45,814 nucleotides of DNA. Source: Paracoccaceae bacterium (GTDB taxonomy: Bacteria; Pseudomonadota; Alphaproteobacteria; Rhodobacterales; Rhodobacteraceae). Of the stretch, positions 4,013 to 8,924 are shown in pieces. The stretch lies in contig SBGD01000027.1 in NCBI GenBank assembly GCA_006226775.1, positions 1-45,814 of the forward strand. Reading direction: 5' to 3'. The first letter of the stretch is position 1, and each line of letters opens with the position of its first letter. The notes under the pieces are model-generated. The model ran no database searches, was not told the DNA's origin, and worked only from the letters and a program-made list of their open reading frames with translations. Both the position numbers and the translations under genes were made by a program.

Positions 4013-4231
4013 TTACTTGTCCTGACGCTTGCGCCAGATCTGATAGATATTGACGAACGCCCAGAGGAACGCCGCCAGGGCCAGAAGATCGACCAGGAGC
4101 GCATAGCGCCCGGGAAGACCGATCCTCGGTCCGATGAACTGGGCCGCGAGCCAGATCAGCATCGTTCCGGCAATGACCAGCGCGGTGAGGCGCCCCTGCC
4201 GTGCGATCTGATGTTCCGTCTCCTGTCCCAT
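4013..4231 (-). CDS. Two-helix small membrane protein, DUF5337-like
   Basis: A 72-residue protein beginning [15 protein letters not shown] at the ATG at 4231. Two hydrophobic helices are visible: about residues 16-35 ([20 protein letters not shown]) and about residues 44-64. The C-terminus is basic (WRKRQDK), which would place it in the cytoplasm. I believe it belongs to DUF5337, a small Rhodobacterales family adjacent to nuo genes, from memory. It lies 16 bp upstream of nuoF and is transcribed with it. Function is unknown; a membrane-arm accessory or assembly role is only a guess from position. Confidence 0.8.
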
Positions 4232-4715: not shown

Positions 4716-6020
4716 TCAGTCGGTCTCCGAAGTGCCGGTGCGCGCCGAGAACTCGGTCTCGCCGCCCTCGGCCAGTATCCTGGCTTGCGCCACCCATTCG
4801 TCGCGGGTCACCCGGCCCTTGAAGCCTTCGAGGTTGTGGTCGACCCAGGCGACCTCGGCCTCGGTCCAGGCGGCGATCTGGTCGAAATGGTAAAAGCCCA
4901 GCGCGTTGCAGAGCTGTTCCAGCTTCGGCCCGATGCCCTTGATCTTCTTCAGGTCGTCCGCCGTGCCGTCCCGCGGCGCGTCGAGCGTCTGCGGTTTGGC
5001 GCCTTGCTCGGGCGTGGCGGCAGCCCCCTCATCCGCCGTTGCCGGCGTCTTCGGGGCGGTTGCGGTGCTGGCCGGCTCGTAGCGCCAGTTGCCCCTGCGC
5101 GCAGCGAGGTCGGCCTCACCCGCCAGCGGGGTGCTGGGCTTCATGGCAAAGGGCGCGCGCTCGGGCGAGGGTTCGGCCTCGGGGCGCCCCTTGGAGGTGG
5201 CCCGGGATTCGCGGTTGTCGATGCCGGTCTCGTCGGCGGGCACATCCCTGGTCGGGCGCGGCTCTTTCGCCTTGACCCTGACGGCGCTGGCCGGGGCGTC
5301 GCCGTGGTTGGCCCCCTGCTGCCAGGGCGCGCGCAATTCGGCCTCGCTGCCGTCGATGCGGCGGATGGTATCGCCCAGGTCGGTGGCAAGCTGCACCGAG
5401 GCATTGTAGCGGGGCCGGTCGTCCACGCCTTCGGCCAGGCTGGTCAGCCCGCTCCTGGGCTCGGAGGTATAGCGCCCGTTCTGCGGACCGGGCACCGGCA
5501 CCTTGCCGGCGGCCAGCTCGTCGATGATCTCGGCCAGCCGCTCGGCGGTCAGATCCTCGTAGTAATCCTTGCCGATCTGCGCCATCGGCGCATTGGCGCA
5601 GGCCCCGAGGCATTCGACCTCTTCCCAGGACAGCTTGCCATCGGCCGACAACTCATGCGGCTTGGGCGCGATCTTGTCGCGGCAGACGCCGATCAGGTCC
5701 TCGGCGCCGCAGATCATGCAGGAGGTGGTGCCGCAAATCTGGATATTGGCCACCGATCCCACCGGCTGGAGCTGGAACATGAAATAGAACGAGGCCACCT
5801 CCAGCACCCGGATATGCGCCATGCCCAGCATGTCGGCGACATATTCGATCGCCGGCCGGCTGAGCCAGCCCTCCTGTTCCTGCGCCCGCCACAGGATCGG
5901 GATCACGGCGCTGGCCTGGCGGCCCTCGGGGTACTTGGTGACCTGTGCTTCCGCCCAGGCAAGGTTGGCCTCGGTAAAGGCAAAGGTATCGGGCTGGTCG
6001 TGGTAGAGACGACGGAGCAT
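4716..6020 (-). CDS. nuoE: NADH-quinone oxidoreductase subunit E with long C-terminal extension
   Basis: Small [2Fe-2S] subunit of the NADH module of complex I. The conserved thioredoxin-like domain covers about residues 1-180, with ligands Cys96 and Cys101 (CGTTSC) and Cys137 and Cys141 (CLGAC). The protein is 434 residues, about twice a minimal NuoE. Residues 180-350 are polar and low in complexity and contain the [18 protein letters not shown] motif (about 297-314) also found in the neighbouring 146-residue protein. Residues 355-425 form a helix-hairpin-helix-like domain with [19 protein letters not shown]. The ATG at 6020 is the family start; its first bases overlap the preceding stop (TGATG). 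Confidence 0.96.
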
Positions 6021-6556
6021 CAGGATTTCCCCTCGGCAACCAGGCGGCAGCCGGTAAAGACCGAATACTGCGCACCCATGAATTCGCTTAACTTGTTGAA
6101 CACCGCGGCATTTTCCTTGTTGTCGTCGGCCAGCGTCGCCGGGTTCATGTCCATAAGGCGCTTGGACAGTCCGCGCAACTGCTGCGCCAGGTAGGAGCGG
6201 TACTTGTCGAGTCCGCCCAGCACCTGGGCCTTGGTCAGCCCGGCCTCGAGCCCGTCGAGCAGCGGCACGATATCGCGCTTGATCCGCGCCAGCACCTCGG
6301 GGCTCTTGACCCGGACCTTCGGCGGCCACTCCGCCTCTGACGCCATGCCCGGCACCGTGTGGCGCAGCGCCCCGTCGATCCGCGCGGCGGTGTCGAAATT
6401 CTCGAAACAGATGTCGAGCTTGCGCTCAAGGAAACGCGTCGCCTCGCCCTCGACATAGGAGGTCCGGGCATAGAAGGCCTGCACCGCGACAAAGGTCGCC
6501 GCGAGAAAGGTCGAGGCCGCCAGCACGAAGGTCGAAGGATCGCCCGCGATCTTCAT
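6020..6556 (-). CDS. Single-helix membrane-anchored protein of unknown function in nuo operon
   Basis: A 178-residue protein starting [10 protein letters not shown] at 6556, with one hydrophobic helix near residues 8-29 ([21 protein letters not shown]). A long, mainly helical soluble domain follows, probably periplasmic, rich in charged residues and carrying two Cys (DICFEN and TGCRL). An in-frame ATG at 6607 would overlap the previous gene and lacks a clear ribosome binding site, so 6556 is preferred. Its stop overlaps the nuoE ATG (TGATG). No family is recognised. Confidence 0.72.
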
Positions 6557-6596: not shown

Positions 6597-6893
6597 TCAT
6601 GCGGCACAGGCCCCCGTGATCAGGCGCACGCCGCCGGTTTCCAGCCGCACCGCCTGTTCGCGGGCCAGGCGCTGCTGGGTGATGGTCAGCACGTCTTCGC
6701 GGGTCATGCCCGACTGGAACTCGACCGCGCCGTAATCGGCCTCGCTCACCAGCTCGCAGCCGATGGAATGGACCGCGGCCTCGTAGGCGGCAATGTCGAG
6801 CGGCGCGCCGCGCGCGCCGGCGACCGGCGCCTCCATGCAGCCCGCAAGGGCGCCGAGGGCGGCCAGACCGGTGACAAGGCGCAAGGTGTTCAT
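6597..6893 (-). CDS. Small lipoprotein of unknown function between nuoD and nuoE
   Basis: A 98-residue lipoprotein: [19 protein letters not shown] gives the lipobox LAGC with Cys19 predicted to be lipidated. The mature domain has two further Cys (IGCELV and TGACAA at the C-terminus) that could form a disulfide. Its ATG overlaps the nuoD stop (ATGA at 6890-6893), so translation is probably coupled to nuoD. No family is recognised. Confidence 0.75.
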
Positions 6894-8122
6894 CGGTCGA
6901 TCTCCCCAAAAACGATATCCATGGTGCCGATGATCGCCGCGACATCGGCCAGCTGGTGCCCGCCCGCCACGTAGTCCATCGCCTGAAGGTGCGGAAAGCC
7001 CGGCGCGCGCAGCTTGGCGCGATAGGGCTTGTTGGTACCGTCGGCCACCAGGTAGACGCCGAATTCGCCCTTGGGCGCCTCGACCGCGACATAGACCTCG
7101 CCGGCGGGGACGTGAAAGCCCTCGGTATAGAGCTTGAAGTGATGGATCAGCGCTTCCATCGAGGTCTTCATCTCGGCGCGCGGCGGCGGGGTCAGCTTGC
7201 CGCGGGCGAGGATGTCGCCCTGCCCTTCGGGCGCGCGCAGCTTCTCGATCGCCTGGTGGATGATCTTCAGCGACTGGCGCATCTCTTCCATCCGCACGAG
7301 GTAACGGTCGAAGCAGTCGCCGTTCTTGCCCACGGGGATCTGGAACTCGAACTCGTCATAGCACTCGTAGGGCTGCGCCCGGCGCAGGTCCCAGGCCAGG
7401 CCCGAGCCGCGCACCATCACGCCGGAAAACGCCCAGTTCTGGATGTCTTCCTCGGTGATGATTCCGATATCGGCATTGCGCTGCTTGAAGACGCGGTTCT
7501 CGGTCAGAAGCTCGTCGATGTCCTTGATCACCCGGGGGAAATCATGCGCCCATTCCTCGATGTCGTCGAGCAGGTCCGGCGGCAGGTCCTGGTGCACCCC
7601 GCCGGGGCGGAAATAGGCGGCGTGCAGCCGCGCACCGCAGGCCCGCTCGTAGAACACCATCAGCTTCTCGCGTTCCTCGAAGCCCCAGAGCGGCGGGGTC
7701 AGCGCGCCCACGTCCATCGCCTGGGTGGTGATGTTGAGCAGGTGGTTGAGGATGCGGCCGATCTCGGAATAGAGCACCCGGATCAGCGAGGCGCGGCGCG
7801 GCACCTCGACCTTGCAGAGCTTCTCGATGGCCAGGCACCAGGCGTGCTCCTGGTTCATCGGCGCCACGTAGTCGAGCCGGTCGAAATAAGGCAGGTTCTG
7901 CAGGTAGGTGCGGCTTTCCATCAGCTTCTCGGTGCCCCGGTGCAGCAGGCCGATATGCGGGTCGCAGCGTTCCACCACCTCGCCGTCAAGCTCGAGCACC
8001 AGCCGAAGAACCCCGTGCGCCGCAGGGTGTTGCGGGCCGAAGTTGATGTTGAAGTTGCGAATCTTCTGTTCGCCCGCCAGCGCGTCGGTGCTGCCGTCGT
8101 TGAATTTCGAGCCGTCCATCAT
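6890..8122 (-). CDS. nuoD: NADH-quinone oxidoreductase subunit D
   Basis: The 49-kDa-type subunit of complex I, which with NuoB forms the quinone-reduction chamber at the junction with the membrane arm. It is 410 residues, a normal length. Recognisable blocks include [25 protein letters not shown], the [11 protein letters not shown] segment, SGVMVRGSG and the C-terminal DIVFGEIDR. The first ATG at 8122 is chosen over the adjacent ATG at 8119: a GGAG lies 8 bases upstream and its bases overlap the stop of the 57-residue gene (TGATG). NuoC is a separate gene here, not fused. Confidence 0.98.
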
Positions 8123-8295
8123 CACCGCTTCTCCAGTTCCTGAAGCTTCATCGCCATCCACCACAGAAGCGCCAGCGCGCCGAAGGGGATGAGGCAGGCC
8201 GCGGCCCAGTGTTTCGCGATGCCGAAGTGCGGCAGCAGCTTGAGCATCGGGATGATCGACAGCGCGGTTATGATCAGCCACCAGAGGAATTCCAT
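8122..8295 (-). CDS. 57-residue two-helix membrane protein between nuoC and nuoD
   Basis: An unrecognised small gene. The ATG at 8295 overlaps the nuoC stop (TGATG) and is preceded by AGGAG with an 8-base spacer. The stop overlaps the nuoD ATG in the same way. The product begins [15 protein letters not shown] and has two hydrophobic helices: about residues 3-20, and about residues 30-46 ([17 protein letters not shown]). It ends in a charged tail MKLQELEKR. Perfect nesting between two coupled nuo genes and a strong ribosome binding site make it very likely translated. Function is unknown; it may be a complex I accessory membrane peptide. Confidence 0.85.
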
Positions 8296-8924
8296 CACTT
8301 GGACTCCTTGCTCACATGGCCGTCCGGCGCGGTCTTCTCGTCGCCCGGCAGGATGTATTCCGCGCCCTCCCAGGGGGACATGAAATCGAACTGCCGGTAT
8401 TCCTGCACCAGGTTCACCGGCTCGTAGACCACCCGTTTCTTGGCCTCGTCATAGCGCACCTCGGTATAGCCGGTGGTCGGGAAATCCTTGCGCAGCGGAT
8501 AGCCGCGGAAGCCATAGTCGGTGAGGATGCGGCGCAGGTCCGGATGGCCCGAGAACAGGATGCCGAACATATCGAAGACCTCGCGCTCGAACCAGTTGGC
8601 CGAGGGGTGGATGCCGGTGATCGAGGGCACCATGTCCTCTTCGCGCACGCCCAGCCGCAGGCGGATGCGGTGGTTCTGGTACATCGACAGGAAGTGATAG
8701 ACCACGTCGAAGCGCTTTTGCCGCGCGGGGTAATCGACGGCGGTGATGTCGATCAGGGTCGAGAACTGGCAATTGGGGTCGTTGCGCAGGAATTCGACCA
8801 GCCCGGTCAGATAGGCCGGCGCGACCTCGAGGTTCAGCTCGCCATGGTCGACCGACCACGACAGGATGCAATCGGGACGCTTGAGTTCGATATGGCTGCC
8901 AAGCTCGTTCAGTGCTGCGGTCAT
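8295..8924 (-). CDS. nuoC: NADH-quinone oxidoreductase subunit C
   Basis: The 30-kDa-type subunit of the complex I connecting module, which packs against NuoB and NuoD. At 209 residues it is the standard stand-alone form. Typical blocks are [24 protein letters not shown] and the signature [12 protein letters not shown] followed by [23 protein letters not shown]. It starts 10 bp after the nuoB stop. Its own stop overlaps the start of the 57-residue gene. Confidence 0.98.

Follow-up and report, generated by a model that had tools for sequence, protein, structure and literature searches.

Bacterial complex I is usually treated as an assembly of 14 core subunits, to which NDUFS4, NDUFS6 and NDUFA12 are added in Alphaproteobacteria. 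To our knowledge, none of NDUFS4, NDUFS6, NDUFA12 and PIMT is a membrane-spanning hairpin. In the 2.3 Å structure of complex I from Paracoccus denitrificans, these four proteins are the extras described (PMC11522691). Small membrane proteins accompany other respiratory systems: CydX, of 37 residues, belongs to cytochrome bd oxidase, and related operons carry further conserved small proteins, CydY and CydZ (PMC4325964), while TorE and NapE are associated with c-type cytochromes, NapE accompanying 68% of NapC and TorE about 43% of TorC, and the role described for them is to strengthen anchoring and multimerisation (PMC6134056). Here, we describe a 57-codon gene located between nuoC and nuoD in a 45,814-nucleotide contig of a Paracoccaceae bacterium (SBGD01000027.1; this whole stretch is hereafter the window). 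The gene codes for protein, is conserved across genera of the Rhodobacteraceae, is under selection at the protein level and is confined within this family to nuo operons with a single exception, which a stop interrupts; its product is predicted to be a two-helix hairpin of the inner membrane and is a candidate accessory factor of complex I.

The nuo genes of the window lie on the minus strand in the order nuoC, hairpin open reading frame (ORF), nuoD, with an overlap of one base at each junction:

8122..8295, minus strand, stop included: gene of 57 codons for a predicted two-helix membrane protein (type 1 hairpin), from its translation, conservation, ratio of nonsynonymous to synonymous substitution rates (dN/dS) and AlphaFold2 model
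8304..8308, minus strand: AGGAG, Shine-Dalgarno-like, within the 3' end of nuoC and 8 bases ahead of the hairpin ATG, by direct reading
8293..8297, minus strand: TGATG, in which the nuoC stop and the hairpin ATG have one base in common, by direct reading
8120..8124, minus strand: TGATG, in which the hairpin stop and the first nuoD ATG have one base in common, by direct reading
8295..8924, minus strand: nuoC (NCBIfam NF004733, E=3.5e-102; nearest chain in a solved structure, 8qby_C of P. denitrificans complex I, E=3.7e-96)
6890..8122, minus strand: nuoD, starting at 8122 or 8119 (NCBIfam NF004739, E=3e-185)

The letters of the hairpin ORF locus run CAAGGAGTCCAAGTGATGGAATTC...GAGAAGCGGTGATGATGGACGGC. 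The A of the nuoC stop TGA (8297..8295) is the first base of the hairpin ATG and, likewise, the A of the hairpin stop TGA (8124..8122) is the first base of the nuoD ATG at 8122, a second nuoD ATG being found at 8119. The initial annotation had reported a short ORF at 8122-8295 with this AGGAG spacing and TGATG at both ends, all of which was recovered once the strand had been corrected to minus (8295..8122), the plus strand of the same interval encoding another peptide than the 57-residue hairpin. The neighbours NuoC, NuoD, NuoB and NuoF score above their NCBIfam cut-offs, and a NuoA candidate matches NuoA models below the cut-offs. As for the suggestion that standard gene callers would miss such an ORF, the usual minimum of Prodigal is 90 nucleotides (nt), which would not exclude it.

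The distribution of the gene was established in 295 family genomes from 294 genera and in a collection of named genomes, from which the best 80 of 182 relatives were retained (hereafter the 80 named loci). With the 57 residues as a tblastn query, 84 of the 295 genomes gave a match at E<=0.1, and the matches at E<=1.2e-15, other than the window itself, share 55-77% identity over almost the full length. In the genus of the window, all four genomes examined have a match, and one relative reaches 86% identity. A profile built from 45 relatives detected 75 of the 295 genomes at E<=1e-3 (77 at 0.01), and, when the intervals were read, 71 of these 75 proved to have the hairpin in the nuoC-nuoD gap; in the other four, it adjoins nuoC where the contig stops (L042), is decayed (L069) or occurs solely between nuoF and nuoG (G177 and G261). 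By hand count from the profile table, 80 of the 81 places found at E<=1e-3 in the family are within nuo operons, the remaining one (G288) being interrupted by a stop and not adjacent to nuoC-nuoG. In every one of the 80 named loci, which come from Ruegeria (R. pomeroyi among them), Sulfitobacter, Roseobacter, Phaeobacter, Sedimentitalea, Primorskyibacter, Marivita and other genera, the hairpin occupies the nuoC-nuoD interval and has the same strand. The top class-level match from another family (L072, E=3.1e-12) is again in this interval, and the next seven class-level loci (L073-L079), read by eye, are not. In other families of the class, the same hairpin pattern was seen beside apparent copper-resistance genes (L073/L243 and L076, by eye for L073 and L076), and small proteins with this pattern form tandem pairs beside an apparent purB (L075 and L078, by eye); the hairpin may thus belong to a wider superfamily.

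Conservation of the frame across genera, together with a median dN/dS of 0.18 (95th percentile 0.40; 81 distinct sequences, 2347 of 3240 pairs with dS of 0.1-1.5), makes it practically certain that the hairpin ORF is a genuine protein-coding gene. The corresponding medians of the flanking genes are 0.10 for nuoC and 0.075 for nuoD, and variability at hairpin codon positions 1, 2 and 3 is 0.26, 0.12 and 0.42. Comparing the 57 residues by tblastn with dN/dS was the check proposed by the initial annotation, and it confirmed that the frame is conserved between nuoC and nuoD. As to the accompanying argument, that such double coupling could hardly arise by chance, an open frame with two hydrophobic stretches (at thresholds that we set) occurred in none of 20,000 dinucleotide shuffles of the ORF bases, whereas a frame of the same length was open in 25.9% of them. 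Openness of the frame is by itself not rare, and it is conservation that settles its coding status.

In agreement with the two hydrophobic helices and charged tail first noticed in the translation, AlphaFold2, supplied with an alignment of 40 sequences, predicted helices at residues 2-23 and 28-56 with a mean predicted local distance difference test (pLDDT) score of 85.4 and a predicted template modelling (pTM) score of 0.48. On this model, the product is predicted to be a two-helix inner-membrane protein. Residues M1, W6, P16, L21, P22, F24, G25, W30, P37, L43, W45, L51, E53 and E55 are invariant in the 40 aligned relatives, and M17, K19, L20, K28, C34, G39, K50 and Q52 join them when positions conserved at >=90% are included. 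Two subtypes can be distinguished. Type 1, that of the window, has about 57 residues and typically ends in KLQELEKR, and type 2, mostly of 57-75 residues, often combines a Gly/Tyr-rich start with a PFWRLLPRYGIP-like turn. One hairpin of each type is present within a single interval at L002, L017 and L053.

Sequence and structure searches connected the protein to no described family. In Pfam and NCBIfam, no family is hit by the window protein up to E=1, and its relatives give sub-threshold matches only; neither the window protein nor one type 2 relative matches a PHROGs or PADLOC family up to E=0.1. Queried with one sequence and two profiles, the complex I chains of the PDB gave no match, and identity with a known supernumerary subunit of a solved complex I was accordingly rejected; the best PDB chains, 6nwd_A (E=4.2, with the sequence as query) and 8hju_Z, a small polypeptide of a reaction centre (E=0.42), are at chance level. 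A fold-based search of solved structures returned five matches, all at E>8, which carry no information for a hairpin. Odd gap values had hinted at a NuoC-hairpin fusion, which was discarded after the frames had been found separate in the six loci checked. Among the literature matches listed, none names an ORF between nuoC and nuoD in Rhodobacteraceae, the original operon papers not having been sought individually.

A second site of the same operon carries related proteins. Hairpins with an RTGHSG turn are located between nuoF and nuoG in G130, G177, G261 and G221, the last having two or more copies, and one directly precedes nuoG in G180; both the nuoC-nuoD interval and the nuoF/nuoG region are filled in G130, G221 and G180. 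Among seven further nuo operons without a nuoC-nuoD hairpin, L247 matches the RTGHSG profile after nuoF and six show no match. The nuoF-nuoG relatives are weakly similar to the Pfam families DUF5684 and DUF805 (best E=0.0066 and 0.043), but membership was rejected at 17.5 versus 27.4 and 14.7 versus 25.7 bits (gathering thresholds), and the window protein has no such match. The RTGHSG turn is combined with a ...LAFKxWP end between nuoF and nuoG at L100, L101, L102 and L103 and before nuoG at L240, L101 having two, perhaps three, such hairpins in tandem.

The proposal that the gene encodes an accessory or assembly subunit of complex I, as put forward initially, can be divided into a part that held, a genuine nuo-tied gene under purifying selection, and a part concerning action on the enzyme, which we infer from confinement to nuo operons at two sites and from selection, and which we regard as evenly balanced. 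A coupled gene for a two-helix inner-membrane hairpin that serves complex I as an accessory membrane factor outside its core is the explanation that we favour, by a little over even chances. A ribosome ending nuoC would reinitiate at the hairpin ATG, as suggested by the overlap and by the Shine-Dalgarno-like motif, so that the peptide would arise next to the subunits of the peripheral arm. Of the 80 named loci, 60 share the one-base overlap of the nuoC stop with the hairpin ATG, and the 20 nt upstream of the hairpin contain an exact AGGAG in 41 and AGGAG or a part or variant of it of 4-5 bases in 73. The hairpin would then insert in the inner membrane and may bind complex I, where it could aid the membrane side of the enzyme, through docking of the peripheral arm (NuoC, NuoD), stability or membrane packing. 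CydX for cytochrome bd and TorE/NapE for c-type cytochromes could serve as functional models.

Several observations weigh against such a role. No confident match was obtained in 220 of the 295 family genomes, although a NuoC+NuoD query matches 287 of them, and, among the genomes without a match whose intervals were read, nuoC abuts nuoD in several. In G702, whose NuoC is identical to chain 8qby_C over 196 residues and which was therefore taken as P. denitrificans, the gap between nuoC and nuoD is 50 nt and no hairpin was detected from nuoC to nuoG at E<=0.001, so that complex I can function without a hairpin. The solved structure of the P. denitrificans enzyme neither supports nor refutes a role of the hairpin, since the species is without the gene. 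Along a NuoC tree built from 118 loci, the hairpin switches between presence and absence at least 31 times, little below the mean of 36.8 obtained when the labels are shuffled (200 shuffles, minimum 28), while on a tree of 68 loci the two subtypes follow the tree better, with 13 changes versus 22.8 shuffled (minimum 16). The 118 loci comprise the genomes with a match and non-match genomes with the highest NuoC/NuoD scores against the window or against P. denitrificans NuoC, nearly one per genus (L042, without nuoD, was skipped of 119); with a non-random sample and so short a protein as NuoC, the counts of changes are rough. The lack of a confident match in 220 genomes and the frequent turnover disfavour a core or essential role. 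In a transposon-sequencing study of Rhodobacter sphaeroides, all 14 genes from nuoA to nuoN were scored essential, although the authors caution that a nuoG mutant is viable, if slow (PMC5513736).

The nuoC-nuoD slot, moreover, also takes genes without an evident tie to complex I. By motif counts, the 118 loci include 30 sulfotransferase-like, 11 Lumazine_bd_2/SnoaL-like and 4 GFA-like genes and 1 hotdog thioesterase, one representative of each class being confirmed by Pfam (PF13469, PF12893, PF04828 and PF22636, respectively); the sulfotransferase number is an undercount, as the motif missed at least three look-alikes (L037, L038 and L114). Where no hairpin is present (47 loci), nuoC and nuoD are at most 60 nt apart in 20 loci, 14 of these having a gap of -4. 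No more than 60 nt separate the hairpin from nuoD in 18 of the 80 named loci, and the other 62 hold something in between: a short single-helix ORF in 26 (LLAGA, a loose motif), a Lumazine_bd_2-like gene in 6, a type 2 hairpin in 1, a sulfotransferase in 1 and unassigned sequence in 28, the sulfotransferase motif having likewise missed the large ORF of R. pomeroyi (L163). Given such varied inserts, the double overlap of the window marks the neat extreme of a broad spectrum.

These inserts, the turnover of hairpin presence and the small proteins of wider similarity found away from nuo in other Alphaproteobacteria are what would be expected if the interval were a permissive slot in a well-expressed operon and the hairpin a passenger, one of several genes drawn there by the expression it offers, with a membrane function unrelated to complex I. 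This is the main rival to an accessory factor, and we consider it unlikely while giving it real weight: a general passenger would be expected elsewhere too, whereas 80 of 81 family places are in nuo operons, at two or more different junctions.

Several inserts deserve description in their own right. Sulfotransferase-like genes occupy the slot at L203, L211, L214, L085, L087, L090, L092, L095 and others. In the genus of P. denitrificans (L216, L225, L228, L229, L232, L234, L238 and L239), the slot is filled by a 143-residue ORF tightly coupled on both sides, which resembles the ORF of L098, a hotdog thioesterase of FlK type (PF22636). In Ruegeria (L129, L140, L178, L190 and similar loci), an ORF of about 40 residues, GELxALGALGVLLAGAAxKAxEAEKVRVRAEAKKKxRGR-like, separates the hairpin from nuoD; some Sulfitobacter loci have a different small ORF after the hairpin (LEELMAKLFG...LKGRK). 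At L139, L146, L173 and L125, the type 1 gene is followed by an ORF of about 75 residues that resembles a hairpin and has a KRHGYP turn, probably another relative.

The gene could also act through its translation, the passage of ribosomes over a short frame setting the ratio or timing of nuoC and nuoD expression while the peptide itself is incidental. TGATG at both ends in the window and a tight 5' junction with nuoC (-8..+15 nt) in 71 of the 80 named loci would suit such a spacer, but the 3' junction with nuoD is tight by the same measure in only 17, of which 14 overlap by 4 bases; where it is not tight, the usual cause is an intervening small ORF or gene. Both junctions are tight in 15 of the 80 by script, with L123 in addition, so the description of the gene as locked at both ends holds for the window and not as a general feature. 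Purifying selection on amino acids, as measured by dN/dS, and the invariant residues further disfavour an incidental peptide, and we judge this explanation improbable. Still less probable is a small membrane toxin or a phage- or defence-related protein lodged in the slot: small size, hydrophobicity and an insertion hotspot would fit it, but a phage or anti-phage protein was rejected on the PHROGs and PADLOC results, a plasmid collection gave no hairpin match, and conservation in one operon across many genera speaks against it. A chance open frame without product, for which only the frequency of open shuffles could be invoked, is refuted by 81 distinct DNA sequences that conserve the frame, its length and its residues, at the dN/dS given above.

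Beyond the single gene, type 1, type 2 and KRHGYP hairpins, the single-helix ORFs of about 40 residues and the related hairpins at nuoF-nuoG are candidates for a broader, tentative picture, in which the nuoC-nuoD interval of Rhodobacteraceae would be a socket for swappable small membrane proteins that take one another's place or stand side by side, and complex I would possess lineage-specific supernumerary membrane subunits. The solved P. denitrificans enzyme could not show such subunits because the species is without the genes. Should an accessory role be true, it would define a new class of accessory factor for complex I, in many marine Rhodobacteraceae and in the bacterial class related to the mitochondrial ancestor, and it could be tested directly in bacteria available in culture, Ruegeria pomeroyi among them. 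If the hairpin is instead a passenger, a core respiratory operon would still be repeatedly accepting foreign genes at one stop/start junction.

Elsewhere in the nuo operon of the window, a gene at 4013-4231 (minus strand), between nuoE and nuoF, encodes a small 72-residue DUF5337 protein of unknown function (PF17272, E=3.3e-34). The nuoE frame at 4716-6329 (minus strand) is far longer than the usual NuoE, with an Ala/Pro-rich linker and a C-terminal segment after it.

With respect to described systems, CydX is a single-helix protein. It is also a demonstrated component of its enzyme (PMC4325964, PMC6005532), whereas the hairpin is a predicted two-helix protein of another operon without a family match. 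TorE (56 residues) and NapE are, like the hairpin, small membrane proteins syntenic with a respiratory system and patchy in distribution, but as described in PMC6134056 they have a single helix and c-type cytochrome partners, in contrast to the two predicted helices and nuo operon of the hairpin. Kinship by descent with CydX or TorE/NapE was set aside on the lack of a Pfam/NCBIfam match and on the two predicted helices, that is, from family and structure searches rather than pairwise comparison. NDUFS4, NDUFS6, NDUFA12 and PIMT are non-core extras of complex I in the same bacterial family, NDUFA12 starting with two amphipathic helices (PMC11522691). The hairpin shares with small accessory proteins of the CydX and TorE/NapE kind a gene placed in the operon of an enzyme (80 of 81 family places and all 80 named loci) and a small hydrophobic product under protein-level selection (57 residues, two predicted helices, dN/dS 0.18). 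Operon-borne small membrane accessory proteins are a known class, to which, by analogy, the hairpin would add an enzyme and a protein family that both appear new to it among the literature matches listed.
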